Positions 4,015-63,520 of a DNA stretch of 64,000 nt are shown here, piece after piece. The notes under the pieces are model-generated. The model was not told where the DNA came from and did no database searches. It saw only the letters and a list, made by a program, of their open reading frames with translations. The stretch is from assembly GCA_019055375.1 (NCBI GenBank), contig JAHQIW010004555.1, positions 310,001-374,000 of the forward strand, given 5' to 3'. Both the position numbers and the translations under genes were made by a program. How positions within the stretch are numbered: position 1 is the stretch's first letter; every line of letters begins with the position of its first letter. This DNA is from Parelaphostrongylus tenuis (lineage: Eukaryota > Nematoda > Chromadorea > Rhabditida > Metastrongylidae).

Positions 4015-4430
4015 TTTTTGAGGCCTCGCTCAAACCTCGTTGTAATCTGACATAATATTTTAAGCCTTCCGGAGGTCTGTATGGCACTTCGAGTGCTAGA
4101 CGTACGCTTCGGCTTTCATATCAGGCCTCATCAGTAGCGCATGCCTTTCGGTTCAACCGAGTCCATACTTATAGGGGTACTGACGTCGAAAATATTACAC
4201 TGCACGCAAGGTGAAAAGATCACGTGACATCGCAGTGACAGTTGACTGCTCGATAGTTGGTGAAAGAAATATAGCAGTACCTTCTTGTAGGTTGTCAGAC
4301 CGAAAGGTATTTACTACTGCTAAGGCTTGATATGAAGGCCAAAACATTTGTCTTAGCACTCGAAGTACTATACAGACCTCTGAAAAGCTTAAATATGCTG
4401 TCAGATCATATTCAATGTATAGTCTGTAGA
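4015..4430. mobile_element. hammerhead-bearing foldback element, copy 1
   Basis: Left and right arms are inverted copies. The left arm has 'aatctgacataatatttt' then 'aagcctt', and the right arm has the reverse complement of a closely related string near 4380-4410. Each arm holds a hammerhead-like core. The left one (minus strand, 4083-4145) is fairly well kept. The right one (plus strand, about 4321-4375) is eroded to CTGCTAA, stem II GGC/GCC, AAAAC. The inner part carries the string 'ctgctcgatagttggtgaaa' shared with other copies. No coding capacity, so it is probably non-autonomous. Confidence 0.65.
4083..4145 (-). ncRNA. hammerhead ribozyme-like motif (type I)
   Basis: On the minus strand, CTGATGA is followed by a GGC/GCC stem II with a long loop, then GAAG (canonical GAAA, last A changed), then CGTACG-TC forming a minimal stem III and the UC cleavage position. 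Flanks pair as stem I: GCGCTA with TAGCAC (5 of 6) and GGCA with TGCC. The core change makes activity doubtful. Confidence 0.6.
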
Positions 4431-5371
4431 ATGTTTCAAACTTTCGAAGTTGATATGTTATTAAATGTAACATGCGATCAAAACCGCTTCGTTAACAAGG
4501 ATAATATCCAGTCTATGGCTGGCCCAAGTGAAACATTCATACCTTCAGAGGTTGAATGTTTATCAAAATGGAGCATGTGATGATTTAGTGTTCAGCGAAA
4601 TCATTATTATAAGTTCACGAATCCTGACAAAATCATTGTGACAACAAGGTTTAGTGACTGCTTATGTAGACGATGTAGACCGAAGGCATTGAGCAGCCGC
4701 CTCCAATCTCACACTACACATCTAATATTGTGAAAATTAGATCAGTTGAGATGCGAGCAATTTCATTTGTTATACACATTCTTGTTGGCTACATTTTCTT
4801 ATGTGTCTTAGATGTTATGGAGTAAAATAGAAAACTGAAATGTTATCGAAAATGTCTTGAAAATTTGCTGCAGAAGCAGTAGAACAAGCATTTTCATGCG
4901 TGGTTGGCCTACCCATAGTTGTTGATTATTATTAGGTTATAGATGGTTTGGATGTTTTTTCTTCTTTGTGGGATCGTCTTATTGAACTTTGCAGGTGGTC
5001 GACGGCATTGAGACAAGGTCTAGGAGTCGAGTAATTCTGCATGTGAAACTCGTAGAATTCTTATTGCAATCATCAAAAAAGGTGACGTATGTGATGTGAT
5101 GCATAGATAGTCATCGTGCTGATAACTTAGTCTACTTTGTGTGTGTGTTTTTTTTTTTCAAAATTTATAGTCATGTATCTCGTTTTAGTTTCTCCTGTTT
5201 TTTAATCTCCAGTAGCTTCATCACTTAACCTACTTAGATCTGACTTAGTATGTTGTGATCACAGAGTAATCGCGTTTTGTATTTTCTTGTGATTGCTTCG
5301 TAGGAAAAGGTTAACTGGTAGAAAACTCACTTAATATCGAGTAGTTCGTCATAGTTTGATTTGACAAATAG
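4431..5371. other. no gene recognised
   Basis: No convincing exon. There is a T-run near 5150 and a weak acceptor-like site at about 4994, but no supporting open frame. Confidence 0.4.
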
Positions 5372-5731
5372 GTGATTGAAAATCTCGGTTTGCTGGCTGT
5401 TCATATTCAGCCGGTTTATCTTCATTTCGCGAGTTCACGCCCTGAAGTTTGCGTGCTTGTACATCTCAGAAAACAAAACTATTCGCTGTGCATTTTGTTT
5501 CTGCCATATTGTTTTTTCAAGAGAATTCTTATATTTGCTCTAGTCCTTTCAATCCCTGTGTATGTCATTTCAATTCTTCTATGCATTGTGATAGGCTATA
5601 AATCATTGAAATTGCTGATCCCTCAATCTCGCCTAGCATTCGATGACAATTTATTTCTCATTTGCAGAGTTCTATACGAGTCATTTGTAGTAGTTAGTAC
5701 TATTTTCTTATTATCACTCAAATTTCTGTGA
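5372..5731 (+). CDS. uncertain hydrophobic ORF, possible degenerate membrane protein exon
   Basis: A 119-codon open frame with two strongly hydrophobic stretches (about residues 45-58 and 60-80, the latter LVLSIPVYVISILLCIVIGY) ends in another hydrophobic run. The pattern could be part of a nematode seven-transmembrane chemoreceptor, but I recognise no family signature. AT-rich noncoding DNA often gives such hydrophobic frames by chance. No clear start context or splice sites. Confidence 0.15.
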   Translation: MIENLGLLAVHIQPVYLHFASSRPEVCVLVHLRKQNYSLCILFLPYCFFKRILIFALVLSIPVYVISILLCIVIGYKSLKLLIPQSRLAFDDNLFLICRVLYESFVVVSTIFLLSLKFL

Positions 5732-6399
5732 CACGGTGTCCACTATAAAGGATTGCTGTATTGCTTGACAACCTCACCGTTCATCATTGATTTTGGTCTC
5801 TACTCACAACTTAAAGGCTTGTAAGACCTGACACTTAACGTAGTGCATTGGGCTTTTTGCCTGTTAATTTGTTAATTTATACTGTAATGGTGCTGATTAG
5901 TGATGATACACATAGAATGAAGGCTCCTCGTTTAACCACTGCTTATGCTCACAAGAAATTCTGAATGGTATTTGGGTTGGTTTCAAGCATATTTGAAGAA
6001 GTGCAGCATGAGAGTCTGTTTCAAAAAGAGACTTGATGTCATTTTAGTGACTCAACCGCATACTTTTTGTCCTACAACTTGCCATTTGTCACCTGTGAAG
6101 CTCTTCCGAAATGGCCTACTTAGATTTTATAATTCCGAACGGGATAGGGGAGTGTCACGCACGGGCAATGATGCTGTTTACTTCTACAAAGACCTGGTTC
6201 AACTCTGCCCAAATTGTCGAAGATACATACCCTTTCGTAATGCTGAGATTGGCACTAGACTTGCCAGGGTTGGCCCACTGCACGAGAGTGTCCTAACACG
6301 CTAAGAAATTACAAAGAGAGTCGATTCGGCTTGGAATCAGCGACATCCTTGAAGATATCGCAGTCATCAAACAGCATTCAACCCAATGCTAGGATTTTG
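5732..6399. other. no gene recognised
   Basis: A 119-codon plus-strand frame at about 5945-6304 exists here, but its composition is not protein-like and it has no splice context. Nothing else identified. Confidence 0.35.
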
Positions 6400-7658: not shown

Positions 7659-7884
7659 GGCGCCGTGGGCGAGTGGTTGTGATACTCGTCGCGGCGCTCG
7701 TGGAGCCGAGCTCCACCTGCGAACACTCTCTGATGGTCAACAAGAACTCCCTATGGTTCGGCACAACCAGGCTATCCTCGAGATTGCAAGGTGACATGCT
7801 CGACCAGTGCTCTACGTCATTCAAGAAGACGAAAACGAATCGAATGCAAGATGTACTGGAATTCGCATAATAAAAATTGTGATG
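7659..7884 (+). mobile_element. SINE family A (tRNA-derived), copy 1
   Basis: Begins GGCGCCGTGGGCGAGTGG, which resembles the 5' end and internal A box of a Ser/Leu-type tRNA. A 'gagccgagctccacc' segment stands where a B box would lie. The body then has 'actccctatgg', 'ggctatcctcgagattgcaa' and 'cattcaagaag', and the tail is 'gcataataaaaattgtgatg'. Six other copies in the window share this order. Non-coding; presumably Pol III-transcribed and LINE-mobilised. Confidence 0.8.
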
Positions 7885-8267
7885 AAGAATCGTGTAAACA
7901 AATAAGAAATAATCTCTTTGTGAGAACTAGAGCGACGCTGACTACGATAATTTTTTCTAAAGCGACGGATAACGTTTTGGCATTAAATTTCGCTTTCCGA
8001 TCTCGCTTCCTAATTTCGCTCTCCATTTTCGATTTTGATTTATATGCGATCATTTTCGTGTGATGACGCACCGATGGCTTTTCCCGTGCAAGGGATTTAG
8101 CGCGGCTCTCAGGAAGGTAAAACTGTCAAAAAGGAATAGTCCGTAAAGTAGTTCTTGATTATTCAAATCGAGTTCTAAAAAAAGTCTGTTTTTCAATTCA
8201 CTTCGCAATTCCTCGTTAACCACCTTTGACAACTCAAGGGTGTTTCATTGTTTTTATCATGTTTCCA

Positions 8268-9559: not shown

Positions 9560-9860
9560 TGTCTATTTCAAGAAATAAACCAGTCAGCAATATAGTCATC
9601 AACATGATTAATGATATGTAGCCATTTACTGAGAAAAGATTGAATGTCTTCCTCTTGGAAAAAATGTGGCTGGCGATCGAACAAGCTGGTGAGGTCATCT
9701 TCGAACTGATTGTAGTCCTTGAATGTCTTCTCCCACAGGTATTGCTTCAAATCGCGATAGAGATGATTATCCGGTGGAGCAAGATGAGGGCTATACGGTG
9801 GACGTGGTATGAGGTCCAATCCACTTTTCTAATATGTGGCAAGGTGACTTTCAGCCGATA
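9560..9860 (-). pseudogene. mariner transposase, C-terminal part
   Basis: An uninterrupted minus-strand frame includes RPPYSPHLAPPDNHLYRDLK, the conserved block around the third catalytic residue of mariner transposases. It is followed by YLWEKTFKDYNQFEDDLTSL, then an SKWLHIINHVDDYIADW end. This differs clearly from the copies at 0-2.3 kb, so it belongs to another mariner lineage. The sequence just upstream (about 9820-9860) is frameshifted and the N-terminal two thirds are absent. Dead fragment. Confidence 0.85.
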
Positions 9861-10065
9861 TCATTTAGATAGCGAGCTATGGTGCTATTTCAGTACCTAA
9901 GGGTCTGCTCATGCTACTGGAACAATCTTAAATATACAACTTTTTGGTAATAACCCGGTTTGAAACAGAGTTGTTATGCATCAATATTCGAATGTTTTTT
10001 AAGACCTCTATCAAAATTTTAATACACCCCACATTATATTCTAAGCCTTTCATGAGGTCTGTCAT

Positions 10066-10125
10066 GGCACTTATTAGTGCCAGACGAACGTTTCGGTCTT
10101 TTGACCTCATCAGCAGCATGGTGTC
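10066..10125 (-). ncRNA. hammerhead ribozyme motif (type I), intact core
   Basis: Minus strand: CTGATGA, stem II GGTC/AAAA/GACC (perfect 4 bp), GAAA, then CGTTCG-TC as minimal stem III plus UC cleavage site (predicted cut between 10083 and 10082). Stem I proximal ATGCTG/TGGCAC pairs 5 of 6. The distal GACACC/AAGTGCC half is partly eroded. All conserved catalytic-core bases of the hammerhead (CUGANGA, GAAA, UH) are present. Confidence 0.75.
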
Positions 10126-10847
10126 TTTTGGTTCAGCCAGTTCCTTGTAGGTAAGTATGTCCCTACATCTAAAGGAATCGACACCGAATTTGTTACACTA
10201 GCTGTAGACGGAATATATCACCCTACCTGCAGTGATAACAAGCGCTGTATGTCAAGTGATAAGATCACCTAACATTGCAGTGATTAACAGTAGATTGCTC
10301 ATGGCTGGTAATAGGTTAGGTAAAAAGTTCTGAGAAAATGCTTGTAACTTTTTTGGTTGTCGGCTATTTTCTGTTTTTAGGCTCATTTGAAAGCCCGTCT
10401 TCTCCCGCGTTATTGGCATATAATTTATCTATTTATTTCAAGATGGTGTTAACAAGCGAGTAAATTAGATTGTTGATGACGCACGAATGGCTGTTGGGTT
10501 CAAATGAAACGGTGGCAAGTGATCGCATCAATCTGGCTTCAGGCGAGGACAGTTGCCAAATGTACAGTATACAGGTGGCCAGAAAGTTTGACGAAGGTGA
10601 AGAAAGTACTTGTACTATTGGTTTTGTCTTTGTTCGGGTGTGATAAGTGCATAAATGAATGTTTCGCAAGCACTCTCTCAGAATTTTTCCTACAACCTAT
10701 TAAATTGAATATTAGCTATATATTCGACTGTTTTTTTTTTCAAATCTCGCTTAATAAAAGGCTTTATGAAAGGCTTAAATTATATTGTCAGGGTAATCAG
10801 ACTATAAGGGTTGTATACTCTCCTACAATGATTTGGCTGAACCGAAA

Positions 10848-10907
10848 GGCACCGTGTTACTGATGAGACCCAGGGGCCGAAACGTACGTCCAGCACTAAT
10901 AGGTGCC
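10848..10907 (+). ncRNA. hammerhead ribozyme motif (type I), intact core
   Basis: Plus strand: distal stem I GGCACC with GGTGCC (6 of 6), proximal GTGTTA with CAGCAC (5 of 6), internal loop TAATA, core CTGATGA, stem II GACC/CAGG/GGCC (3 of 4), GAAA, CGTACG-TC. It mirrors the motif at 10066-10125 on the opposite strand. The core bases are complete. Confidence 0.75.
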
Positions 10908-10971
10908 ATAACAAACCTCGTGAAGGGTTTAAAATATACTTGACTAATCAGGTATAATCAGACTTGATTTT

Positions 10972-11554: not shown

Positions 11555-11735
11555 TCTAGTGTTTTCAATACATTTTTCGCAATGTTATGATGTTTCACAT
11601 ATTCCTAAGGGAATTGAGTGATGAGCAAAAATTCGACCCCAAACGGAAGTCGAACCCGTGTTCATTCATACCGAGGACTTGTGCTACTACCACACCACCG
11701 ATATACATTCGCTTCACCACTCATTCTTAAATGAT
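11555..11735 (-). mobile_element. SINE family C (tRNA-derived), copy 1
   Basis: On the minus strand a tRNA-like unit has A-box-like TCGGTGGTGTGGTAG and a clear B box, GGGTTCGACTTCC, with 'gctcatcactcaatt' downstream. The flank 'ttcgcaatgttatgatgttt' is shared with the 29.0-29.4 kb copy. No mature-tRNA cloverleaf can be drawn, so it is a SINE rather than a tRNA gene. Confidence 0.65.
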
Positions 11736-12484: not shown

Positions 12485-12660
12485 GTCTTTACAGATTTCA
12501 TTTTATTTGACCGCCTTTAGCGCTGGTAAGATATCATAATATATCCAATGATAAAGAACGATGTGCAAAAACATTTCCGTCAGCTGGGATTCCAATCAGA
12601 TTTCACCGTATCCGGGGGTTGAACTGTTGCACAAACAGATAACGCGTTGTAGCGTAGAAA
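12485..12660 (-). mobile_element. SINE family B, copy (left half of head-to-head pair)
   Basis: Minus-strand orientation: the tail stem-loop 'accgcctttagcgct', 'aacgatgtgcaaaaacattt', then the tRNA-like part up to 'gcgttgtagcgtagaaag'. It abuts a plus-strand copy that starts within the shared 'agagtgatgtcaaaac' string. Confidence 0.7.
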
Positions 12661-12800
12661 GAGTGATGTCAAAACGGGCGTCCGTAGTGCAACGGTTTAG
12701 CATGCGCCCTCGGATAGGATGAAATCTGGGTTCGTATTTAGCTGACGGAAAGGTTTTTGCACATCACTCTTTATCATTGGGTATATCATAATATCTTTAC
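12661..12800 (+). mobile_element. SINE family B, copy (right half of head-to-head pair)
   Basis: Plus orientation: 'gtgatgtcaaaacgggcgtc', A-box-like CGTAGTGCAACGG, B-box-like CTGGGTTCGTATTTA, 'gctgacgg', and the body ending 'gcacatcactctttatcatt'. The inverted partner lies immediately upstream. Confidence 0.7.
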
Positions 12801-17459: not shown

Positions 17460-18665
17460 GGATACGGCATGCATTCGCCTTTGATTTTTAACCTCGCCTG
17501 AGGTGACTGAGTGCATATCTGGCCTTTATAAATATTCGCGGTGGCCTATCGATGTATCAAATCAGTGCTGCTTGTCCTCTTAGGCAAGTATGGTACCACT
17601 CTACGTACCGCGGAGGGATGGAAGGATTGGTGGGCCCTGGGGGCGGGATTGCCGTCGACATCATGTGCGACGCAGAGCACCTCTGAGCACTGCACCACTC
17701 GCGGTCACTTGAAATAGGAATGATTATCAACTACTTAACAATGCCTTCTTGTTCCAAGGGATCGCGTGGAGCTCATACAAAAGTGCCACAGAGCCGACGC
17801 TCTCTGAATTTTCACTGTAGTCTCCAAATAAATCGTTGTCGGACTCTCTTCTGATAGATTCAATGAGGAATCACCTCAAAGCGACTTAGTTTCTCTATAC
17901 TATGATTGCTTATAGGATCTTCTATGTTATCCAGGCAAATGACGAAGCGACACATTTCGCTGAACAAGAACCTAGTAGTCATTCGAATGCCTAAGTCTCT
18001 GACTAGTGCACTACTTGCTCCTCTTCTGAAAAGCCTTTTGTCGCGCTGTAGCAGAAAGCAAACATGTGTTTTACACACGCATGTTTCTCGCACAACAGAA
18101 CTGCTCCCTGGAGCTGTGATAGCCATTCGATATCGTAATTTTCCACAATCATAGGCTGTGCTTGTTTCTGAAAAAAAAAAACCGTTTCTCTGCAGTGTAA
18201 CAGGGGAAATAAGGGTGAGTCTCACATACGCGAGCATTTTTTTTTCGGCTAGTGTGTGAGCTGTTCGTAGACAGGTGGGAGAGAGGGGATGGATGCTGGC
18301 CGTGAATTCCATACGGTGATCGATCGATCTGTCGCACTGACGCACTACACATGTGAAGTGTAATTTCTGTTATTTAATTCAAGATTTTCTTTTCCGCTTG
18401 GAAAGAAACTCTATGAAACGTAGGACTGTGATAGCACAAAAATTTCTCTACACTATCATATGCTTTTCATGCCTTTAGAGAAGTAATAGTAAAAGCGCTC
18501 GGCCGATATTAAACATAATTTTGTTTTGAACGCTACAGCTTTATAAGGGTCTTTTCAAAAAAGGAGCTAGTACCGCAGTAACCAGAAATTCAAACTTTTG
18601 AATGGTTATTGACACTTATGAAAAATTTTTGTCCAGCAAAGGAGGTTGTATCTTCATTCGTCTCC
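17460..18665 (+). repeat. dispersed repeat R, longest copy
   Basis: Matches in order the copy at about 41.95-42.99 kb: 'ctgaaaagccttttgtcgcg', the 'tgcagtgtaacagggg' / 'atgcagcaggg' pair, 'acgcgagca', 'gatcgatcgatctgtcgc', and 'ttataagggtcttttca' followed by 'aaaaatttttgtccagcaaa'. The longest ORF of the window (161 codons, minus, 17860-18345) sits inside, but it is not preserved in the other copies and is rejected as a gene. Confidence 0.55.
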
Positions 18666-20478: not shown

Positions 20479-21119
20479 CTTATACCTAATTCTAAAAATA
20501 TTTGTGAAATGAAAAAGTACTCTAGTACATGCGACATGTGATGTTGGATCATGTAAATTAGTTATAACGAAGAATTAATAAAAGAGCTGTTGCGCTGGAT
20601 TCAAAGTAGGAATATTGTACTCACCGCTAGATTGCACGATGGAGACAATTCTCATGCACTTGCACTATGTTCTAAAAATGAGTACTTTCACGTTCATCAA
20701 ATTATAGTAATTATATCCCCACAAATTCTATTTTTTTTTGGTTTGCCAGTTTCGGTGGCTATATTAGGCACAAGTTGACCATTCAATTGAAACAATGTTT
20801 CTATCAAATTACTAAAAAGGTTTTTCGGGGATCAGTATTTCGCCATAGTGCGAACAAATTGGACAGTTCCAGAGCGCATACGCTATTTGAGTAGCTCCTA
20901 GTATATTCTTCCAATCGACTTTTTTTGAGCCTTGCTATTAACATTCACTATAGTGTGTAGAAATGCTTAGAACGTTTTCGAGTCGATATATCGATTGTTT
21001 GCGAGTATAATATGTAGATTGTAGGCTTCCATATTTTCTGGTCTGCTTCCGTACAAGTGAGTTGCACAGATGACGCTGTAGTGGAAAACTGTCTTTTATA
21101 TTAGATTGTTTTTGAAACC
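20479..21119. other. no gene recognised
   Basis: AT-rich, no supported feature. Confidence 0.35.
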
Positions 21120-21720
21120 TCGTTAAAATTTTATCCATCCTGACAGCAAATTTTGAGCCTTTCGTGAGTCCGTAATGGCAATTTATACAATGCAGTACAC
21201 GTGTTTCGGCCTTGTAGCCTTGTCAGCTACGCAGCACCTTTTGTTTGAGCCAATCCCTTCTGGGGGAAAATCACCTTACATAAAAGAGTCGTCGACGAAC
21301 ATGTTCCACCGCGTGTGAAGTGAAATTTCTCTTTACCCACGTATGACATATTACTGCATGTCCAGTGACATGATCGCTGGACATTGCAGTGATTAATATT
21401 CGATCGCTCAAGGCTGATATTTTTGATAATTAGTGCCTTTATATTCGACCGTTTTTAAATCCCGCTCAAAATTTATACATTTAGACAGCATATATTAAAT
21501 ACTCTCCGTTACTTGCAAGGCCGCTTGTCATCTTCACAGTGGCGTCAACCTAGCATCCCATGCCTCACGGCTCAAGGATTTGATGCCAAACTTGTTTGGC
21601 TAGAGTTCCGTCCGATGTACAAGGCTGACGATCACCTGTAGAGAAGATCTGACAAGTCTTAGTGCGATTATTACAGGAATCCAGATAGAACCTTCTCAAC
21701 CAGCGCTGAGCGACATTCAT
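21120..21720. mobile_element. hammerhead-bearing foldback family, copy 3 with eroded second unit
   Basis: The first unit starts 'gagcctttcgtgagtcc', has the hammerhead at 21177-21238 and the inner string 'ggacattgcagtgattaa'. At about 21450 a second tip-like stretch ('cccgctcaaaatttatacat') starts an eroded unit whose 'catgcctcacggctcaagg' corresponds to the usual 'ggttcagcc' region. Direct, not inverted, order. Confidence 0.5.
21177..21238 (-). ncRNA. hammerhead ribozyme-like motif (type I)
   Basis: Minus strand: CTGACAA (canonical CTGANGA with G8 changed), stem II GGC/GCC, GAAA, CACGTG-TA (2-bp stem III, UA cleavage site). Stem I proximal GCGTAG/CTGCAT pairs about 5 of 6 with wobble. The G8 change would be expected to abolish activity. 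Confidence 0.55.
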
Positions 21721-22835
21721 AAGGAAGACCAACAGTCTTGAAATAGCACCTGAACCAATAGGTGAGAACGAAGATTTTAGTGGATAGCAAATGAACGAAG
21801 CGAATTGAATGAAAGAAGTGCTGAGCTTAGAAGAATTAATGATGTCTAATCATGTAGGAAAGAGCGCGTTTTCTAGGGATGGCCTCCATCGTTATTAATT
21901 TTGGTGTCATCGTTTACTTATCCGAGCACACAACTCAAGTGTCAGGCTATTTGCTTCTGATCTTCTTTTCAATGTTTTCGTGATTCATTCACTTATATTA
22001 AACATAGTCAGTGCACTATTAAATACTTGAATGAGAATGTTTTTTTTGCTTTCTCAAGACCGTCAACCAAGTTTTTCCCAGAGTATCAAGCACGAGTCTT
22101 ATTTCAATTTCTCAAAATGTAGAACTATACATTAATTTCTCGTCCTATAGAAAATGTTTTGCTTACTTTGTTCTTGTTAATGCCGCAAGCTTGTTGATGA
22201 CGTACCACTCTACTTTCGTGACCCATTAAACGCATTATGAAATTTTGAAGTGTCAATGATTCACTTACATCGCTCACTACTCTATCTTGTTATAAAGCGA
22301 TCAAGGGCGATTGATTTATTGATATAGTTGATAAATTCAAAATTCTCCCAATTTCATGAATTTCCTTTAGACTGAATGAGAGGTGGAGAGAGTACTGGGT
22401 TCGAAAAGCCTTGCAGCAATAAGCTCAAGGTTTTTGGTTCAACGAGCTTGAGCAGTCATTTCACTCTTTCGGTGCCTAGTAAATAATAGAAGACCTATCT
22501 GCAAAAAGCTATCTTCATGCCACAAAGGCCAGCGTCCCATTCTTCATCTGTGATGAAAGCATAGAAACGTACAATCAAAGCTGTTTAGGGATTTCAGGAG
22601 AAAAAACTAGGCTGAAACTGGATGGCAAACATGATCGGAAATTTGCAAATTTCAAGTGGCAAACATGAAAGCTATAATACGTTTATACGTGAAGGATGTG
22701 GCAACGAATAAAATGAAGAAAGCGCAGACACTTGGGACAAATAAATAATGAATAATTTGAGTTAAAAAGTTCAACTCTCTGTAAAACGTGCCATTAGTAA
22801 TTGATAAGCGTGAATCTTAAAGACTAATCCTGATT
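21721..22835. other. no gene recognised
   Basis: AT-rich. No supported exon, RNA or repeat. Confidence 0.4.
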
Positions 22836-24055: not shown

Positions 24056-24062
24056 TCACTTC

Positions 24063-44690: not shown

Positions 44691-44984
44691 TTGTTCTTTA
44701 TTTTTCCTCATGTTTTGCAAAAGATGGAAAATTCGATAAAAGAAAAGCAACTCTATTAACAAACCAGGCCACTAAATAAAATCATAATATTCAGTGCAAA
44801 AGCATCGTCATCGATATGGACTACAGCAAACACTGCTTTGATTACTGACTAGATCTAACTAGATAGAGATTTCCCTTGCGTCATTATTATCTATAAGTTT
44901 ATACATTGATCCGTGTGCTTCATATCGACGAAGTTTTTTAAGCTATCTCAAACAAATAATTTTTCACTAAACTTTTTTTCCCGT

Positions 44985-47419: not shown

Positions 47420-47900
47420 GATTACTGGCAGTCATTTAATAGCCCGCATCTCGATAATTTTGATGCTAAGACTGATTTCGGAACGGTCCATATAGAGTGC
47501 TATTAAAGGAAAAAAAAATCGTGATTCGCACTCTGAGTAGTTAGCTCGCTTCTTGAATTTTGTAAACGGGTTTATTACGCAATGAAAAACAAAAAAGTTT
47601 TCGTACCAACAGAGCAATAGAAACAAGGCTCTTTTGCAGTTCCTATACAAAAAACCTAGAAATTTTCTCGGAAAGTGTCAAAAAATTACAAATAAGCGAC
47701 GCAGTGCGCAACGATTTTAACTATCGCCTCGAAAAAGCACGTCATTCGGCAGCCGCACGACTTTCTTACTCAATTGGAAATTTTTTCCCCCTACAGGGAA
47801 AATTTCTAGGATTTTCGTATGAGAGCTGCAGAGGCCACTTTGTTGCATCGTTCTATAGGTGCACATTTTTTTTGTTCCACATTGCCAAATAAACACGTTA
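47420..47900. repeat. dispersed repeat related to 29.9 kb
   Basis: The first 110 bp align with 29876-29990. The remainder has strings such as 'cgcaacgattttaactatcg' reminiscent of the repeat R box in the opposite orientation. Non-coding. Confidence 0.4.
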
Positions 47901-47954
47901 TGAAGTTTGAGAGACGAACTAACCTACTTCGAGTGCAAAATATGATTACCTTTT

Positions 47955-48545
47955 TGTTCTATTGGCGCTCTATACGGACCGCTTGAAGTGCTAAGGAGCC
48001 TCATTCGCGCTCCAGAACTCATCAATCATAGTCACTCGGTTCAGCCGATCCCTTGACTACACTCCTCTATGAAGGAATCAAAGCCGAACGATAAGTCACC
48101 GCAAGTCAGGTGACAGAATCCTTTGACATTGCAGTGACCAGGAATCAAGCTTGTTGGCTGGTAAAATGAATCATATCTCTTCATTCGAGCGATTTATTAC
48201 AGACCTCGCTCAAAAAACAATAATAGGCTGATTATGATTTAATATGTTCTAAGCCGTTTTTGAGGTCTGATAATTGCTAAACAGGCGCCTGTTTTGTCCT
48301 TATCTCACAAAGGGCTCAGAACATGTTATACAATATCAGGCTATAATTGTTTTTGGGCGAGGTCTATAAAAAGCGGTTGAAAGAAGAGGTACAACTCATT
48401 TCACCAGCTCCAAGCTCGATCGCTGGTCACTACAATGTCAGGATATTCTATCACCTGACTTGCGGCAATTTAATATTCGGCGTCGATTAGAGGGCTATAA
48501 CTTAAAGGGTGAACCGAAGGAGACGACATAGGTTGCCGGATGACT
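47955..48545. mobile_element. hammerhead foldback family, diverged palindromic copy
   Basis: Inverted blocks: 'ggttcagccgatccc' (48036) with 'gtgaaccgaagg' (48513); 'gcaagtcaggtgacagaatc' then 'ctttgacattgcagtgacc' (48099-48140) with the complement 'ggtcactacaatgtcagg' (48425-48465). The hammerhead cores are eroded; the minus-strand remnant near 48285-48315 keeps only the GAGATAAGGAC and AAAAC parts. Confidence 0.6.
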
Positions 48546-50029: not shown

Positions 50030-50214
50030 ACGGTGCACGCCTTCTATAACTGAACTCTGATGCTACCTTGTTTGCCTACCAAAAAAAAAAACACGCAAAA
50101 AAGACAGAGTTTATCCAGTTATTAACAGCTATCTAAATACTGCTGACTGGCAATGTTGAGCTTTAAAGAAGTTGGCTACCGAATTCGATTGATTTTACTT
50201 ACTGACACGACTCG

Positions 50215-50440
50215 CCATCACATTTTATTGTGCGGATCCCACTACTTCTAACATACGATTCGTTTCTCGTTCTCTTCTCGATAAAATACTGGTCGAGCGT
50301 CTCTCCTTACAATCTCGAAGAGAGCTTGGCTGTGGCTGTGACGCTCCATAGGGCGTTCTTGTTAACTGTCCTAGAATGTTATAGGGTGTGAAGCTCGGCT
50401 CCACGCGTGCCTTAACGAGCATCATAACCACTCCGTCACG
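50215..50440 (-). mobile_element. SINE family A, copy 6
   Basis: Minus strand: CGTGACGGAGTGGTTATGAT, 'gtggagccgagcttcaca', 'aagaacgccctatggagcgt', 'cttcgagattgtaaggagag', tail 'gcacaataaaatgtgatg'. Well preserved. Confidence 0.8.
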
Positions 50441-51167
50441 GCTCGTCCCGGTTCACTAATAATAACTCATTTATTCATATGACAGCTTACAAGTAAATAT
50501 GATCGTATAAGTATGCTGATGGAAGTTATCGATGTTCCAGCCAATACCGAATCTAGAAATCGTAGTTGTTTTTTCTGACAGAAATGCTGAAATAAGAATT
50601 GATCTGAAAGCCGGCTTGTTTTTGTACGCTAATCCTTCTCGAAAGTAAGAGATTTTCTTGTCAATTTCAGTTTACTCTTTCACTACGAATGCTTTTAGAT
50701 GTTAACTCTTTGAGAACTTCATAGTAGTGACCGTTTAGTAGTGCAAGGAAGTTTCTTCAATGAGGAAGGAGCTTGAGGTAACGTAGATCTTTTCGCCTTT
50801 GTACAGCCTAAATTACATGGAATAGTGATCAGGAAAGAATAATTAATAGTGGAACGATGTACAAATGGGAGTTTTGCTGTAGTCAACGATCCGGCGTTTG
50901 GCTGAAGTGTAGAGATGCCATAATGTCATAAAATAGAAAAGTTGCTGGCGAAGAATTTAATACATGTCTATAAACAAGCACAGAAGAATCGATAGCCGTC
51001 ATAGTTTATAGAAGCTTACAGGGCTACTCTTGTTGTGGTACTTTAGATAAGTTCAATATTACTACTCGAATAAACAAATAGATAAAATCACATCTGCTAC
51101 CCCTAAATTGTTTGTGCTAGACTACATCTTTCTAATGCTTGATTTCTCCCATGCGACTAACATTCAG
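50441..51167. other. no gene recognised
   Basis: No supported exon or repeat. Confidence 0.4.
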
Positions 51168-52500: not shown

Positions 52501-53114
52501 GATCGCGGAGAAATGAAAGCTTTGGTAAGCCTGGGATGAGAGGTTGCACCTAATTATCGTTGGCAACAAAGCAGACTGTAAAAGTAGGGTTATAAAAAAT
52601 GCATTCATTATCTGCAAAAGGTGAAGTCGCCGGAAGCGTTAGTCATTACATTTCATGAATACTTGTTAACGACCTCGCGTTAGACCAAAAAAAAAAATGG
52701 AGAGCTCGTTAGGTAATATGAACTGATTATAAAGGATGAGACAAGGGTTCATTCATCGCTCGAGGTACACAGATTCGCATATCGCTCAAGATTACTGGAA
52801 ATATATCTATAACATCACAACATTGTTATAGAAGAGGTAAAATGGAAAGGGATCTTGCAGATAACATAAATTAATTAATGCCCGAATCAATCAAAAACAA
52901 TTCAGAGGACTGACAATGCTTATAAGCCTTATCAAGCTAAGACAATCTTCTGCCTTAAAGATACTGCTTATTTTGATTGTCGCAAAATCTTACTAATACT
53001 TCTTGTTAAATTCAAAACAGAAGAAGCAATTTCTTTAAGGTGGAAGATTGTTTCAGCTCAAAAAGGCTTGCATGCATATAAAATTAGCAACAATATATTC
53101 TAGATATCTGATAT
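52501..53114. other. no gene recognised
   Basis: No supported exon or repeat. Confidence 0.4.
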
Positions 53115-53144
53115 TATGTGTTGAACCTTTATGAGGTGCGGTAT

Positions 53145-53205
53145 GACACTTATACAGTACTAAACAGCTGTTTCGCCTTTCTAGGCTCGCCAGTAGCACG
53201 GTGCC
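53145..53205 (-). ncRNA. hammerhead ribozyme-like motif (type I)
   Basis: Minus strand: CTGGCGA (A6 to G, a core change), stem II GCCT/AGAA/AGGC (4 of 4), GAAA, CAGCTG-TT (UU cleavage site). Stem I proximal GTGCTA/TAGTAC 6 of 6 with one wobble, distal GGCAC/GTGTC 5 of 5 with one wobble, internal loop TGTATAA. The fold is almost perfect but one core base is wrong. Confidence 0.65.
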
Positions 53206-53427
53206 TCTCGGTTCAGCCGATTCTTTACAGGGACACACTCTTACTTGTAGAGAAATTGGTGAATATTTTAATCACTACATGCCAGGAGATAAAATCCACC
53301 GACATTGCAGTGATCACAGCCTAGCAATTATGGCTGGTAGAATGAATCGTAACTTTTCTTTCGACTGTTTGTATAGACCTCGTTTTCAATACAATTGTAA
53401 TCTGATGTTTCGAGTCTTCTATGAGGT

Positions 53428-53500
53428 CTGGTGAAGCACTTATGCAGTATCGACAACTGTATCGCCTTTTCCACACTCGTCAGCAGCACGGTGCCTTTCG
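53428..53500 (-). ncRNA. hammerhead ribozyme-like motif, eroded
   Basis: Minus strand: CTGACGA (allowed core), poorly paired stem II ending AAGGC, GATA instead of GAAA, CAGTTG-TC. Distal stem I GGCAC/GTGCT. Direct-repeat partner of the motif at 53145-53205. Confidence 0.45.
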
Positions 53501-53565
53501 GTTCAGCAGATCATTTGCAGAGGACATACACCCGTAGTTTACCCGTGCATTTGCAGGTCGTAAGC

Positions 53566-53625
53566 CACCATGACACTGATGAGCTTGGAAAGGCGATACA
53601 GCTCTCTGGTATTGTATAAGTGGCA
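53566..53625 (+). ncRNA. hammerhead ribozyme-like motif (type I)
   Basis: Plus strand: distal stem I GCCAC/GTGGC (5 of 5, a paired change relative to GGCAC/GTGCC in other copies), proximal ATGACA/TGGTAT 5 of 6, CTGATGA, stem II GCTT/GGAA/AGGC (with one wobble), GATA (canonical GAAA), CAGCTC-TC. One core base differs. Confidence 0.6.
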
Positions 53626-53934
53626 TAGCAGACTGCACAAAAGCTTCAAAGCAAGTCATCAGATTATCAGATTATCATTGTTTTCGAGCGATATCTACAC
53701 GAACAGTCGAAAGTTAAAGTACGATATACTTCAAAGAGTGTAAGCTACTAGACTACCGATAGTGGTTGCTGAATAGCGAACATTGTCGAATTTCTGCTGA
53801 AAGACAAAGAAGTGTTCATGTCGATATCTAAACAAACACAAATATGTCAATTCGTCCTATCAGTAATACAAAATATTGAATAGTTCACCTTTAAAATGTA
53901 GTAATGGTCTCTTTGATTCATCAAAACCTTTAAT

Positions 53935-58060: not shown

Positions 58061-58334
58061 CAAAATCTTCAAATAACGTTGGGACGATGAAGACAAGGAA
58101 ACGAATTGATCGCTGGAAGTGCCGCAGTCTGCAATAAAACTGTGACAAAGATTTACGTACAAGAAAAGTAAATGGAAATTGTTATCAACAAAATAGTGTA
58201 GTGATAGTATCAAATCATGCATAAGAAAGTTCAAGATTGTTAGAGATTATTGTCCTCATGTGACTGATGACAAAGAAAGTCCGTTGTCTCAAGGACTTAA
58301 TTCGGATGTCGAGAAATCTCAAGATAAAAGTTGG

Positions 58335-58693
58335 ATATGCCTTGCAGTCATATCTAAGCCACGCATGTCAGTGGTCTGTCAAATAGGGCTGACTTATAAA
58401 GCCCGATACACGTCTTTCAATCTTACGATCTCGTCAGTCGGGCAGTTACCCTTTCTCGCCTTTTGCTAATCTCTGTGGGAGGTACAGTGCCCTCACTAAG
58501 AGTTAGCGACGACGAACGTTTTACACTCTATGTCCAGTGAAAAACTCACCAAACACAGAGTGCTGTACACTCGATTGCTCGTAGCTAGTATATTCAGTAT
58601 ATCATAAATTTCGTTTTGAGTGTTTTCTTAAGACCACAGCTCTGTTTGACATACCACTGACATGCGTGGCTCAAATATGATTGCAAGGCATAT
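58335..58693. mobile_element. hammerhead foldback element, CACGCATG subfamily
   Basis: Arms 'atatgccttgcagtcat' with 'gccacgcatgtcagtgg' (left) and the complement 'ccactgacatgcgtggc' with 'gattgcaaggcatat' (right). The left arm holds a well-kept hammerhead at 58385-58452. The right arm has lost its core. Confidence 0.65.
58385..58452 (-). ncRNA. hammerhead ribozyme motif (type I), core complete
   Basis: Minus strand: CTGACGA (position 7 is free, so canonical), stem II GATC/GTAA/GATT (one wobble), GAAA, then GACGTG-TA with UA cleavage site. Stem I proximal GCCCGA/TCGGGC pairs 6 of 6. Distal AGGGT/GCCCT pairs with one wobble, with an added ACT/AGT. The only deviation is G-G at the first stem III pair. 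Confidence 0.7.
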
Positions 58694-58879
58694 TGAAATT
58701 TGAGCTGTAGTCTTGAGAAAGCACTCGCAACAAAAGTTGGATAATTGAAATATCCCATTACCGAAAAAAGCAAGAAATTCATATTATACATCTATTTCGA
58801 GTGTTTTACTAAGATCACCCTCGAATTTCAATAGATCCTTTCATTATTATTTGAGCCAACATGTCATGTCGTCGGGTAA

Positions 58880-58942
58880 GGGATCTTGCACAGCTCGATG
58901 CACGTGTTTCGTCCTTGCAGACTCGCCAGTCGGGCAGAACTC
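58880..58942 (-). ncRNA. hammerhead ribozyme-like motif (type I)
   Basis: Minus strand: CTGGCGA (A6 to G), stem II GTCT/GCAA/GGAC (one wobble), GAAA, CACGTG then CA where UH is needed. Stem I proximal GCCCGA/TCGAGC 5 of 6. Two functional positions are changed, so probably inactive. Confidence 0.55.
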
Positions 58943-59352
58943 GCCGTCTTTCGATCTTTTTATTAGTCAGTTTTTCTCGGGAGCCTGCTCCTCCTGCAGA
59001 GAGATATCGAAGACGAACTTTCTACACTCTATAACAAGTGAAATATTCGCCAAACACGGAGTGTTGTACACTACATTGACCTTTGGCTAATATTTCTATC
59101 ATATTATGTCTTTATTTCGAGAGTTATATTAAGACCACGCTCAAATTTCAATAGATCCTTTCATTATTAATTGAGCTTGAAATGAAAACATAATATGATA
59201 AAAATACCAGCCAAAGAGCAATGGAGTGTACAGCACTTTGTGTTAGGTGAAAATTTCACCTGACATAGAGTGTAAAAGTTCGTCTTCAATATCTCTCTGC
59301 AGGGAGAGCAGGCTCCCGAGAGAACTGACTAATAAAAAGATTGAAAGACGGC

Positions 59353-59415
59353 GGGTTTTGCCCGACTGGCGAGTCTGTAAGGACGAAACACGTGTATCCG
59401 GCTATACAAGAGCCC
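59353..59415 (+). ncRNA. hammerhead ribozyme-like motif (type I)
   Basis: Plus strand: distal stem I GGGTTTT/AGAGCCC (7 of 7 with wobbles), proximal GCCCGA/TCCGGC 5 of 6, internal loop TATACA, CTGGCGA (A6 to G), stem II GTCT/GTAA/GGAC (one wobble), GAAA, CACGTG-TA. Only position 6 of the core differs from consensus. Confidence 0.65.
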
Positions 59416-59435
59416 TCACCAGACGACATAAAATT

Positions 59436-60104
59436 AAATTGGTGGCCAGCATCTTTTCGATGGATCAATTTACAGTTTGAACGATTTTCTTCACCATATT
59501 TGCTTAGGTTCGACAGGCATCCAGATAAAAGAACGGAAAGGCACAGCAATAGATTCATGTTTAGAATTCGGGATAAAAATGTAAAGGTGATGTTTTGACA
59601 TTTCCTTGAAAGGCTGAGAAGTTCTACAGTTCGTTACTGCAGAAGTTCAGATATTCTTCCGTCATCGAACAAGGTTTTTGAAGGAGCCTTTTGCTAAACA
59701 AAGACTTCTCACTAGTTTACATGAACATTGAAAAGCTTAGATCTCGGGAATTTCAGAAAATACTAAATCTCTAGAAAAGCCTTCCTATAGAGTCGTATTA
59801 GGTTAAAAACTATGTTTCATCGTATTTTTTGTCATTTCTATTTATTACGCCAAATTTGTATCTTTTCTTATCATGTTCAATGTCATTCGAAAGCTCGTAA
59901 TGGCGAGATTCTTGGTATGCAAGCCATTTAATTTTTTCTCTATTTGTATAATTTTCAATAGCTCGAATAAATGTAAGTGCTTTAGCAAATTATCGACTTT
60001 CGAAAAGCGTTATCTTGCCAAACATCGTTGCAACGACATGAAAAGATGGTAATCACATGAAGCTGCCTCGAAGATATTTGGTGGACGAGCTAAACGTTGA
60101 AAAC
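59436..60104. other. no gene recognised
   Basis: No supported exon or repeat. Confidence 0.4.
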
Positions 60105-60370
60105 CCTCTCTATTTCTTCAGTCTTTTGCAGTGTCAAAAGCGCAATATGTGGAGGAGTGTTATCTTGACTGCGCTCCGATAAGCTGACGCAGCCGCTTAT
60201 AACTTCGCCTTCACGAAACTTCTTGAACCATTTTTGTGTGGTTCGGTGATCAACCACCTTGTGTTTAAGTGCTCTACACAGTTTTTGTTCGCTTCGGTGG
60301 CAGTATTATCCAAGTAGAACGGAACGCTCAGGAAGATGTTCACGACTAAAGTTGTGAAGTTGACATTCTA
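60105..60370 (-). pseudogene. mariner transposase, N-terminal fragment
   Basis: The minus strand starts ATGTCAACTTCACAACTT (MSTSQL, then stops). It continues NIFLSVPFYLDNTATEANKN, with a frameshift to LKHKVVDHRTTQKWFKKFRE, the helix-turn-helix region of mariner transposases ('RT.(R/Q)WF.KFR.G'). The downstream part decays into stops. No catalytic domain. Confidence 0.75.
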
Positions 60371-60990
60371 AAGTATAAGAAATTTTCATGTAGTAACAGA
60401 ACAAAATCAAATGGTTCACATAGTTAAAATCTCAAAATCACAAGCTTTCGAATGATATAAAACATGATATATGAAAAAACCTATGAAATAAATTTGTTAT
60501 AAATAAATTTGAAAAATTTAAAAGATGCGGCAAAACATAAATTCCAACTTAATAGCAGCGAAAATAATGTTATGTTTCAACAAACGTCTCTCGTCATCGC
60601 AAATATCAAATATCGAGAGACAGAGCTCTCCTCTAGAGTTAAGTAGTCAGTTGATAACGTGGGTTTTCGGCGATTTTAGAAAAATGACAATGCTGTTTTT
60701 TTCCAAAGAGACCTTTTCTTAGCGCCTGTAGCAGTGAAGTGAAAATTGTGTTACACACAAGTAGCACGCGTTTTCATTATTTTTTCCAAGTCTTTCCTCT
60801 AATTTCAAGATACTCCATAATTCTGATGAATTGCCAATTGCACGAGAAACTTTGTTCTACCGCTTGTGTAGGCATAAGATTTTTATTTTCATTTGCCAAG
60901 TAAAACTCACTAATATGCCCTCTTATGAGTTTTGAGCCTATATCGGAGAAGCATGAGCACATACAGAGAAACTCATGGAGTAGCGGAATC
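60371..60990. other. no gene recognised
   Basis: The box 'tagcgcctgtagcagtgaag' near 60720 is a single unit of the tandem-repeat box. An 85-codon minus frame at 60777-61034 has no support. Confidence 0.35.
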
Positions 60991-61400: not shown

Positions 61401-61954
61401 ATTGACAAGCAGTTTGCTAGAAAGTCTTTGTTCAGCTTAAGAGATCCCTTCGACAGCCCAGAAATGCTAGGTATGTGAGTGGTTTATGAACTTCAAGTCC
61501 TAGACAACGAAAACCATTTCTATCAGACCAGTGTTGAGTTAACCTCTTGCTTAATGTTCAAACATTCACTCCAACAAGATGACGTGAGAGGATACGGAAA
61601 TCACCTAAGTTTATTAGATAGGAATAATTGATACAATTGCACTTGCTTCCTCTCTTGATAGCTTTAAACTTCATTGTGGCAGGGTAGTTTCTGCATGTCT
61701 CACCGCGGTGAAAACAAAACTGACATAACAGCACGATTAGACAAGCAAAAAAATTTGACATTTCAGTACAGAACCTCAGCTAATTGATGGTGCCTTACAC
61801 TGCTCACCGCACTAAAGAGACCTCAAAATTACCTACGGTGAAAGACCGAGCGTGCCATCCTCTGTGAGACCTGAGAAACTGAAAATTTTCCTATAAGCAG
61901 AATGACCAGTCGATGCTTAGCTGAAAGGAGATTATGTAGTAATGTGATACATAT
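61401..61954. other. no gene recognised
   Basis: No supported exon or repeat. Confidence 0.4.
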
Positions 61955-62044
61955 GATAACATGTTTCGAGCCTTTCAAAAGATATGGTATAGCACTTATG
62001 CGTACTAGACAGGCTGTCTCGCCTTTTCAAACTCACCAGTAGTA
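61955..62044 (-). mobile_element. hammerhead element arm truncated by a nested insertion
   Basis: Starts 'tttcgagcctttcaaaagat', then (minus strand) the core at 62016-62039: CTGGTGA, stem II GTTT/GAAA/AGGC (wobbles), GAGA. The arm stops inside stem I at 'cagtagtac', where the long-inverted-repeat element begins. Confidence 0.55.
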
Positions 62045-63084
62045 CCTTTGAAAATGATAAGAAAAGCTTAGAAAACTAATCTTTATTTAGAGCTTCACGA
62101 GGTTGGTATCTTTTTCCCCAATCAATTGTTCTTCTTTCCGGTCGATGGGTTTTCGCGTTTGCTTGTGGGTGACGTTTCGGCGAATACGCCTTCTTCAGAG
62201 CCTGAACGTATCAATCGTTGTAGCGTTATTTATATGACTATATACTGTGAGAGAAAAAATAAATAAATAAATAAATAAATTGAAAATCTACGGCGTTGAT
62301 AAGCGATAACTAATTCGGGGAAACCACTCACCTTACCATCTAATCCAGGGACTACCTATGTTGCTAGCGCCAGGGTGACGTATGAGCCCGCCCCCCCGTG
62401 TCACTAGGTCAAATTATGGATAGGTGCCATCTGAGACCCATGCTAGAAAATCGATCTGAGATAAGGTGCCATGTGATTGGTTATGTTAAGGCACTCGCCC
62501 TTTTTTGGGGGGGGGGGGGTAGTAGTAGTAGTTCGAGGTAGTAGTCAAAATCCTAGGGCACGAAACCAAAAACATCGGCGCGAAAGACCCTTGAAGCTTT
62601 CTGGATAAATTTTAGAAACCCGCAAATGAACAAAAAGGGCGAGTGCCTTAACATAACCAAACACATGGCACCTTACCTCAGATTAATTTTCTAGCATGGG
62701 TCTCAGATGGCACCTATCCATAATCTAACCTAGTGACACGGGGGGCGGGCTCATACGTCACCTTGGCGCTAGCAACATAGGTAGTCCCTGGATTAGATGG
62801 TAAGGTGAGTGGTTTCCCCGAATTAGTTATCGCTTATCAACACCGTAGATTTTCAATTTATTTATTTATTTTTCTCTCACAGTATATAGTCATATAAATA
62901 ACGCTACAACGATTGATACGTTCAGGCTCTGAAGAAGGAGTATTCGCCGAAAACGTCACCCACAAGCAAACGCGAAAACCCATCGACCGGAAAGAAGAAC
63001 AATCGATTGGGGAAAAAGATATCAACCTCGTGAAGCTCTAATTAAAGAATTAGTTTTCTAAGCTTTTCTTATCATTTCCAAAGG
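62045..63084. mobile_element. 1,040-bp long-inverted-repeat element (foldback/MITE)
   Basis: Arms 62045-62506 and 62632-63084 are near-perfect inverted copies (few mismatches by eye over about 455 bp). They start and end CCTTTG/CAAAGG and hold 'gaaaagcttagaaaactaa', 'cttgtgggtgacgtttcgg', an (AAAT)n run of unequal length in the two arms, and 'gtgccatctgagacccatgc'. The spacer (62507-62631) has a 13-G run followed by TAG repeats. No ORF. The high arm identity suggests recent insertion or gene conversion. A clear target-site duplication is not visible. Confidence 0.85.
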
Positions 63085-63520
63085 TTCATATTATTAACAT
63101 GCCGAGGTTTCAAAAAAGTCGGTCTTTTGAGTTGCCACCATTAGTACGGTGCTCTTCGGTTCAGGCCGATCCCAGGGGAATATATTCCACTGATCGACTC
63201 CGAACAGTAGATTGAGGTGATATGATTCATTAATCACAACCAGGAACTCGACTACTGGTTATCGCAATGTCGAGGAAATTTATCATCTAACTTGCGATGA
63301 TTTGTTATTCGGCGTCGATTCCTTTATAAGTGGGGGCATATCCCTTAAGGATCCATTGAACCGAAGAGCACCGCATACTGTTGAGTCTGAAAAGACGAAA
63401 CAAGCTTGTCTAGTACCCTATAAATGCCATACCAGATCTCTCATAAAAGGCTCAAAACATACTGTAACATTATTAGATTATTTTGGTTTTGAGCGAGTTG
63501 TATAAAAGCAGTCGAATGAA
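63085..63520. mobile_element. hammerhead foldback element, copy next to the nested insertion
   Basis: Palindromic: 'acggtgctcttcggttcagg' (63154) with 'ttgaaccgaagagcaccg' (63356), and 'tgatatgattcattaatcac' with 'gaggaaatttatcatctaac' style inner blocks. The right arm keeps a hammerhead; the left arm's core is lost. Ends 'tttgagcgagttgtataaaa'. Confidence 0.6.
63366..63430 (+). ncRNA. hammerhead ribozyme-like motif, diverged
   Basis: Plus strand: CTGTTGA (A6 to T), stem II GTCT/GAAA/AGAC (4 of 4), GAAA, CAAGCTTG-TC (3-bp stem III, UC). Proximal stem I is mostly broken. Probably inactive. Confidence 0.5.

Follow-up and report, generated by a model that had tools for sequence, protein, structure and literature searches.

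The window, which is the whole 64 kb stretch of DNA analysed here, contains 15 type I hammerhead ribozyme (HHR) sites. We consider it probable, at roughly 60%, that these sites are non-autonomous metazoan retrozyme copies of a strongylid nematode, inserted by Penelope-type machinery that primes both target strands. The three-stem core (CUGANGA, GAAA and an open stem I), with its conserved pairing, is a type I hammerhead.

Hammerhead sites and their structure

A covariance model (CM) trained on a 14-copy alignment from the window revealed the 15 sites, each with at least 36.5 bits; the next-best match scored 12.9 bits. The fifteenth site, at 43715-43816 (+), was found though it is absent from the training set. 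An earlier note on this DNA had counted at least 13 hammerhead motifs across the window, and the seven sites that it gave by a single coordinate are all present. Rfam was used as an independent library of HHR families on the window, and none of its matches there reached the gathering score. The best was Hammerhead_1 at 10854-10896 (+), with 31.4 bits against a cut-off of 34 and an E-value of 8e-4 for the window. HH9 matched at 10078-10118 (-) with 23.8 bits, below its cut-off of 52; its E-value is 0.18 over the window and 0.0028 over 1 kb. Hammerhead_3, at 59347-59394 (+), has 21.1 bits and an E-value of 7.7, which is chance level. An Rfam scan of 53050-53750 gave no family with an E-value of 1 or less. 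Rfam microRNA matches near 59 kb were read as the palindrome itself. The earlier suggestion that the family may not be described holds only within the searches made here; it belongs to an already known kind, the metazoan retrozyme, and most of its copies are decayed.

A descriptor with an exact core found two sites (10113 - and 10860 +) against none in ten Markov shuffles, and a descriptor allowing one core mismatch found five, against 0-2 in the shuffles. The relaxed match at 60823 (+) was judged to be chance because the CM gives nothing there.

Unguided folding of the 14-copy alignment produced stem I and stem II, plus two non-hammerhead pairs. The full hammerhead structure paired 86.6% of cells in these copies, against 74.5% after shuffling and 30.5-45.9% when slid, and changes on both sides of a pair were observed in 36 cells against 12.9 in shuffled alignments. 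The structure was also applied to other loci, namely those that best match one copy (40 were scored out of 1588 candidates), so that one subfamily dominates them. Of 56 model matches in these best-matching loci, 52 were aligned; L012:3049, L027:1635, L025:1318 and L003:2058 were omitted as cut off, partial or weakest. The given structure paired 88.0% of cells in the 52 copies and covariation exceeded shuffles, and RNAalifold recovered from them just three pairs of stem II. The covariation test on aligned copies thus agrees, in the window and elsewhere, with the earlier claim that stem pairing is kept despite sequence change, and the bipartite stem I is supported by folding and by the CM.

Stem III has 2-3 bp. 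Thirteen window sites close it with a 4-nt loop, which is palindromic in 10 of them, by three different loops; so is the 4-nt loop in 20 of 39 copies among the best-matching loci. All core letters, read by eye, are intact in 4 of the 15 window sites (10113 -, 10860 +, 43747 + and 58437 -); most window copies are therefore fossils. By a strict rule that includes stem II, the core is intact in 10 of the 52 copies among the best-matching loci elsewhere.

The repeat unit and its head-to-head copies

The unit is about 290-345 nt long, is self-contained and non-coding and carries one HHR, and its copies are circularly permuted or in direct tandem. HHR viroids, too, are non-coding RNAs with an HHR and a length of a few hundred nucleotides. 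Direct repeat periods in the window are 290 (locus D), 320 (E) and 343 (C), and direct HHR spacings among the best-matching loci elsewhere are 305, 306 and 286; the value of 286 comes from L002, where a 2856 bp segment duplicates locus D (83.7%). These values fit the size of about 290-320 nt that had been proposed. The only stop-free frame of at least 150 aa in the window (17860-18369) contains no HHR. Locus C (21095-21496, -) holds about 1.2 units with the period of 343, as 21095-21154 recurs at 21438-21496 with 75% identity; its HHR at 21164-21256 (-) scores 68.5 bits by CM and has the core change G8A. A decayed HHR copy lies at 31576-31669 (-; CM 50.9, A6C).

The unit also contains a hairpin, which was aligned in ten copies: 10240-10285 (-) in B; 4197-4240 in A, 21345-21394 in C, 53270-53315 in D, 48094-48139 in H, 58523-58568 in E2 and 59022-59068 in E, all on the minus strand; and 63258-63303 in F, 48426-48471 in H and 59227-59273 in E on the plus strand. 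In these copies 83.5% of cells are paired, against 77.7% shuffled and 28-43% slid, with 14 double-change cells against 7.5 shuffled. Circular folding of five natural units was not uniformly better than that of shuffles (z -3.9, -3.2, -1.4, -1.3 and -0.2).

The foldbacks described earlier are head-to-head dimers of this unit with hammerheads facing outward. The claims that both arms carry hammerheads and that the hammerheads sit in a mobile repeat are supported. The inverted arms are real, but there is not one fixed foldback, because the head-to-head junctions of A, D, F, G and H map by profile to different positions of the unit. A foldback of this kind is more plausibly the outcome of inserting head-to-head copies than a separate type of element. 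For the same reason, a snapback at the unit hairpin was dropped as the origin of the palindromes. Among the best-matching loci elsewhere, opposite neighbours within 600 bp are divergent in 18 cases and convergent in 2 (p 2e-4; 17 of 19 divergent without the duplicate L002). Arms within the five window pairs have a mean identity of 67.9% against 52.7% for all pairs, and 2 of 20000 permutations were as high. Comparison of the sequences speaks for an origin of the arms of one pair in one event.

Dimer G (43451-43848, both strands) has arms that, aligned with gaps, are 88.3% identical in the 326 columns free of them. Its plus HHR (43715-43816, C3 at 43747) is the site of 36.5 bits outside the training set, and its minus arm has lost the middle of the HHR and has a weak arm end (E 0.34). 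Dimer H (48004-48520, both strands), mapped by profile, has two arms each near one circle in a 75% palindrome and gives no CM match. Dimer E (58777-59434, both strands) contains a direct repeat, 58779-58856 and 59099-59176 (period 320, 86%), and HHRs at 58867-58959 (-) and 59336-59428 (+) with CM scores of 66.1 and 76.3, both A6G. Dimer E2 (58338-58729, both strands) has an HHR at 58374-58467 (-; C3 58437, CM 55.7) with intact core letters and a weak stem III. Dimer F spans 61942-63523 on both strands. Its minus HHR (C3 62039, CM 57.1) is interrupted at 62046 by a nested element, with the earlier part at 63136-63205, and its plus HHR is at 63349-63441 (CM 73.6). The nested foldback (62046-63134, both strands) carries outward hammerheads with C3 at 62198 (-) and 62929 (+). 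Its arms are identical in 437 of 462 columns, the right arm is about 51 bp longer, and it is flanked by the duplication 62034-62045 / 63136-63147 (11/12). Its geometry matches the retrozyme dimers; its hammerheads are minimal and of Penelope type.

Arm ends and target duplications

Arm ends cluster in two zones, P1 and P2, about 40-50 nt apart and, by estimate, about 65 and 115 nt beyond the predicted cut site; a single constant 3' end was therefore dropped. On the profile, the bins were 112-149 for P1 and 150-200 for P2, chosen after viewing the histogram. With the window-built profile, 54 segments in 29 of the best-matching other loci end at P1 (30), P2 (20) or elsewhere (4). Two control profiles also give two end groups (32 and 17 of 55; 31 and 16 of 55). 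Among 16 pairs from the best-matching loci, 13 could be classed, with one profile only, and 11 of these were mixed P1/P2 pairs (p 0.008), two were of the same class and three pairs stayed unclassed. P1 is less sharp than P2, as its place shifts with the clipping of the training arms (peak at 120-125, or 132-137 with longer arms).

In the window, inverted pair A has its P2 arm on the minus strand (HHR 4071-4163, core C3 4134, CM 68.3), ending at profile position 175 (177 and 167 in the control profiles). The P1 end of its plus arm (HHR 4288-4381, C3 4317, CM 52.4; A6C, G8A) was placed by eye only and was not recovered by the profile. In pair B, both HHRs keep their core letters: B- (10053-10143, C3 10113, CM 82.6), which is also the HH9 match, is a P2 arm, and B+ (10830-10920, C3 10860, CM 78.3), the Hammerhead_1 match, is a P1 arm ending at 132 (137 in one control). 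In longer-arm controls A+ and B+, which there partly match themselves through the arm or its own flank in the training, end at 159 and 198 and not at P1. At locus D, D1- (53132-53223, C3 53193, CM 91.4, A6G) ends in P1 at 129 (controls 139 and 133). D2- (53422-53513, C3 53483, CM 72.0, A14T) stands in direct tandem with it, 290 nt apart (53111-53238 against 53400-53529, 75.6%), and D+ (53546-53637, C3 53576, CM 74.8, A14T) is a P2 arm ending at 187. Dimer H departs from the P1/P2 scheme, and E fits on one arm only. A change-point test of arm ends on a gapped global alignment ran into unrelated flank.

Starts were mapped as well. A- starts at 192 and B- at 195, both ending at 175, and E+ starts at 195; B- is thus about one circle, from P2 to P2. 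In the best-matching other loci, 22 HHR-less segments begin no earlier than 90 and extend beyond 225; 12 of them begin at 178-206, adjoining P2. Stem-loops around P1 and P2 were 80.3% and 76.8% paired with covariation not clearly above shuffles, and RNAalifold found no structure for the P1 stem-loop.

Target site duplications (TSDs) of 11-14 bp were observed at two of nine window loci, F (61930-61941 / 63524-63535, 11/12) and E2 (58324-58337 / 58730-58743, 13/14), and at 3 of the 16 pairs from the best-matching other loci, which score at least 9 against a null rate of 0.006. The search found none at the remaining seven window loci and 13 other-locus pairs; for G it used boundaries that were later revised. 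The score of F (10) equals the best of 60 random places, and that of E2 (12) exceeds all 60. A second null gave p 0.001 and 0.0003 for F and E2; these are optimistic because the boundaries were set near repeats already seen, and they were not relied on.

Insertion and relation to known elements

Outward-facing pairs with an extra tail on one arm suggest insertion by a Penelope-type reverse transcriptase. Retrozyme transcripts would cut themselves and become circles. The reverse transcriptase/GIY-YIG endonuclease of a Penelope-like element (PLE) would then cut both target strands, and each cut end would serve as a primer on the unit RNA, starting internally at either P1 or P2. Both cDNAs would be extended backwards through the hammerhead, over about one circle at most, and then be joined head to head; the 11-14 bp duplication would remain after repair. 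We propose only tentatively that a Penelope-type enzyme inserts retrozyme circles with both cut strands priming on the circular RNA, one starting at P1 and one at P2; in that reading, every inverted pair is the trace of priming from both ends. Passages of PMC11167929 report a PLE protein that cuts both strands and extends them, starting at two internal RNA sites whose spacing equals the tail. In vitro, according to the same passages, the start sites were alike on both strands and ribozyme cleavage was not needed, which counts against the model. No frame in the window is long enough for the reverse transcriptase and GIY-YIG ORF of a PLE, and nine window ORFs gave no match in Pfam.

The dimers of the same retrozyme could instead arise by self-priming, in which a cDNA made on an antisense template loops back and serves as its own template, either ahead of insertion or in its course. 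We regard this as unlikely. Part of PMC3846280 proposes this origin for PLE copies that stand head to head, the retrozyme unit has a strong hairpin, and the arms of one locus resemble each other; however, self-priming alone leaves the regular P1-versus-P2 difference of outer ends in 11 of 13 classed pairs unexplained, and the shifting junctions in A, D, F, G and H also stand against it. Still less probable is a reading in which the units, instead of being retrozymes, are solo inverted pseudo-LTRs (pLTRs) of a PLE, its coding part lost or elsewhere. Helix III and a looped stem I set the HHR here apart from the minimal form that a section of PMC7761336 describes for PLEs; the direct tandem and permuted units, at 286-343 nt, are too short to accommodate an ORF; and in both A- and B- the start and the end fall at one unit position. 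Solo and inverted pLTRs with tail and TSD do look similar in the passages of PMC3846280, type I hammerheads occur in PLEs according to parts of PMC7229834 and PMC7761336, and the window contains a foldback with minimal, PLE-type hammerheads. Inverted repeats with short duplications, and the many other inverted repeats of the window, would also suit a foldback or MITE-type DNA transposon containing hammerhead-like sequence by accident, an origin that is very improbable given arm ends that are not constant terminal inverted repeats, varying junctions, direct tandem and single copies, and covarying hammerhead pairing.

Metazoan non-LTR retrozymes carry type I hammerheads (Cervera and de la Pena 2020, PMC7229834, in part), with a palindromic tetraloop in the amphibian ribozyme and a two-pair stem plus tetraloop in invertebrate ones, and passages of that paper name PLEs as a strong candidate for moving animal retrozymes. 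The published descriptions, as far as they cover these features, share with our copies a canonical type I HHR, weak helix III, multiple copies, short direct repeats, non-coding units in the range of 170-400 nt (here periods of 286-343) and, when present, TSDs above 4 bp (here 11-14 bp at some loci). In contrast, most copies here stand alone or in head-to-head pairs, not in long tandems, their arms end in two zones, and the majority are decayed. PLEs, in sections of PMC3846280, leave head-to-head repeats with short duplications and, in some cases, a tail at the 3' end of one arm, as do the copies here, and the HHR likewise lies shortly upstream of the ends (PAc cut site at 26, RT start at 111-118 into the ORF, in part of PMC11167929). 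Unlike the PLEs of these passages, the unit here is about 300 nt without an ORF and has a full HHR with helix III, the tail is about 40-50 nt against 30-40, and duplications are 11-14 bp against 8-10. Plant LTR retrozymes, in passages of PMC4918200 and PMC7761336, are also non-coding HHR RNAs of a few hundred nucleotides, but have type III HHRs, LTR, PBS, PPT and repeats of about 700 nt (PMC7761336).

The retrozyme copies themselves carry the Penelope-like end pattern of head-to-head arms, one-arm tail and short duplication, which was tested outside the window. If the reading is true, the machinery moving animal retrozymes would be identified, Penelope head-to-head copies would have a general origin with a concrete two-primer model, and a strongylid nematode would join the retrozyme hosts; the word 'nematode' is absent from the main text of PMC7229834. 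A reverse-transcriptase fragment also points to a strongylid nematode.

Hammerhead sites and a probable retrozyme unit

The earlier note had claimed a dispersed family of type I hammerheads, and the motif is real: unguided folding of a 14-copy alignment recovered stem I and stem II. When the full structure was scored, with stem III and the outer half of stem I included, 86.6% of cells were paired, against 74.5% in shuffled and 30.5-45.9% in slid alignments. A covariance model trained on the 14 aligned window copies found 15 sites in the window at 36.5 bits or more, and the next best reached at most 12.9 bits. The site at 43.7 kb was outside the training set, yet it is among these 15. A sequence profile from 9 copies revealed six sites beyond its own training set, the weakest with an E value of 0.04. 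Rfam gave 0 matches in the window at the gathering score and nothing in 53050-53750; Hammerhead_1 scored 31.4 bits at 10860 +, just under its cut-off of 34 bits (E 8e-4), and HH9 matched more weakly at 10113 - (23.8 of 52 bits). Judged by eye, the core is unchanged in four of the 15 sites (10113 -, 10860 +, 43747 +, 58437 -), although stem III is weak at 43747 + and 58437 -. The stem III loop is palindromic, in three versions, at 10 of the 13 sites where it has 4 nt.

Sequence 3' of one hammerhead runs on into sequence found 5' of the next. At locus C, 60 bp are repeated after 343 bp; at locus E, 78 bp are repeated after 320 bp (86%); at locus D, two hammerheads follow one another in direct tandem with a spacing of 290 bp. 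Both these repeats and this continuity make sense if the unit is a circle of about 290-345 nt that carries one hammerhead. A further structure of the unit is a 20-pair hairpin, kept with covariation in 10 aligned copies. The only stop-free frame of at least 150 aa in the window contains no hammerhead. The unit has the anatomy of metazoan retrozymes as PMC7229834 describes them. The literature matches listed, PMC11620745 and PMC3653858 at the level of their listing entries, show no retrozyme or family of hammerheads from a nematode, and look-ups of the word nematode gave 0 in the searched text of PMC7229834, PMC7761336, PMC6155905 and PMC3088659. Nematodes may be among the species covered by earlier genome-wide surveys of hammerheads.

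Inverted pairs and their ends

The foldbacks reported earlier do have inverted arms, and mapping of the loci on the unit now shows each as a pair of unit copies that meet at their 5' ends and whose hammerheads face outward. The unit position of this junction varies between loci. Across five pairs, arms within one locus are on average 67.9% identical, compared with 52.7% for chance pairs, and 2 of 20000 permutations reached the within-locus value, suggesting that an inverted pair probably arises in one event. We also sampled the host genome (481.5 Mb, 5105 contigs). The covariance model identified 56 hammerheads in 29 further loci; these loci are the top-ranking hits of a single copy and so belong mostly to one subfamily. 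Adjacent opposite hammerheads less than 600 bp apart were divergent in 18 cases and convergent in 2; four direct neighbours were spaced by 286-306 bp in three cases and by 526 bp in one. One of these loci, L002 (C3003:406122-409283), lies on the same contig as locus D at a distance of about 44 kb and arose from it by segmental duplication; the two are 83.7% identical over 2856 bp, flanks included, and L002 retains the three-hammerhead arrangement.

To place the arm ends, a profile was made from read-through sequences of the window, in which the arms were clipped a little short of the first of two end zones, P1 and P2. Named by locus and strand, window arms end either at profile positions 124-132 (B+, D-, G+, F-) or at 161-188 (A-, B-, C-, F+, E-, D+, and weakly G-); E+ stops earlier, at 103, and E2- at 90. 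The A+ arm was not recovered by this search; the ends of A+ and E2 were assigned by eye or from the target duplication. In the other loci, 54 segments begin in a hammerhead, and they end at P1 (30), at P2 (20) or elsewhere (4). Control profiles with fewer read-through sequences and two arm lengths still give two groups (32 and 17 of 55; 31 and 16 of 55). The P1 peak shifts from 114-131 to 132-137 with longer training arms, indicating that P1 is a zone and not a base. In the longer-arm control, F- ends at 61940, adjoining its duplication at 61941, while A+ runs to 159 and B+ to 198, both partly matching themselves. Both ends were classed in 13 of 16 divergent pairs: 11 are P1/P2, one P1/P1 and one P2/P2. 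The expected mixed share is 0.48 (p 0.008), in a count from one profile only, with bins set on the histogram itself. Locus H is outside this two-end scheme and E conforms on one arm only. Stem-loops near P1 and P2 pair, with covariation not clearly above shuffles.

Some copies are flanked by target duplications. Locus F (61942-63523, an inverted dimer) has one of 11/12, whose score just ties with the highest among 60 random places, and E2 has one of 13/14; elsewhere in the genome, L003 (13/13, A-rich), L025 (11/12) and L026 (10/11) have them. Three of 16 genome pairs carry a duplication, against a null rate of 0.006; none was found at the other 13 or at the other seven window loci.

A proposed mode of insertion

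Rotifer Penelope copies are described in PMC3846280 as having head-to-head inverted pseudo-LTRs, an optional 31-bp tail on one inverted arm and duplications of 8-10 bp. According to PMC11167929, a Penelope protein in purified form cuts both strands of the target and extends them, and it reverse transcribes from two internal RNA sites, the stretch between them being the tail. Inverted head-to-head copies, a one-arm tail and duplications are three marks common to Penelope elements, as these sources portray them, and the retrozyme copies, which carry all three. On these grounds, our proposal is that the retrozyme copies are inserted by a Penelope-type enzyme. Both target strands would serve as its primers, with priming starting at P1 on one strand and at P2 on the other; the enzyme, the circular template and the order of steps are inferred. 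A- and B- start just past P2 and finish at P2. This span is expected from a circular template, and a linear RNA ending there on both sides fits equally. Head-to-head pairs might also form by self-priming on an antisense template, a model set out in PMC3846280, but self-priming alone leaves the regular difference between the outer ends of a pair unexplained.

Nested foldback and other repeats

A foldback at 62046-63134 sits inside the hammerhead of retrozyme copy F-. Its arms are identical in 437 of 462 columns, the right one longer by about 51 bp, and it has an 11/12 duplication. With arms so alike, the nested foldback is probably the younger. Each arm carries CTGAAGA..GAAACGTC, with one extra A in the + copy. 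These hammerheads are minimal, without a helix III loop, and point outward as in retrozyme pairs. Type I hammerheads of this minimal kind, in which the non-conserved portion of helix III is missing, are reported for Penelope-like elements in PMC7761336.

The window also contains a reverse-transcriptase fragment (2554-3237), covered at 2839-3237 - by 23 protein matches labelled Angiostrongylus (20) or Nippostrongylus (3), which are strongylid nematodes. The piece 9571-9828, with no Pfam match, resembles a mariner transposase. Inverted repeats without a hammerhead match lie at 12528-12797, 22811-23092, 41964-43013, 47484-47981 and 59869-60469. Copies of a dispersed family, about 67-75% alike and in both orientations, are located at 7659-7912, 25307-25571, 31310-31503, 32061-32318, 44981-45172 and 50187-50442. 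A 160-bp repeat is common to 29037-29196 and 11573-11732 (79.5%); the former contains a tRNA match below threshold at 29098-29168 (-), and the repeat is possibly a tRNA-derived SINE.
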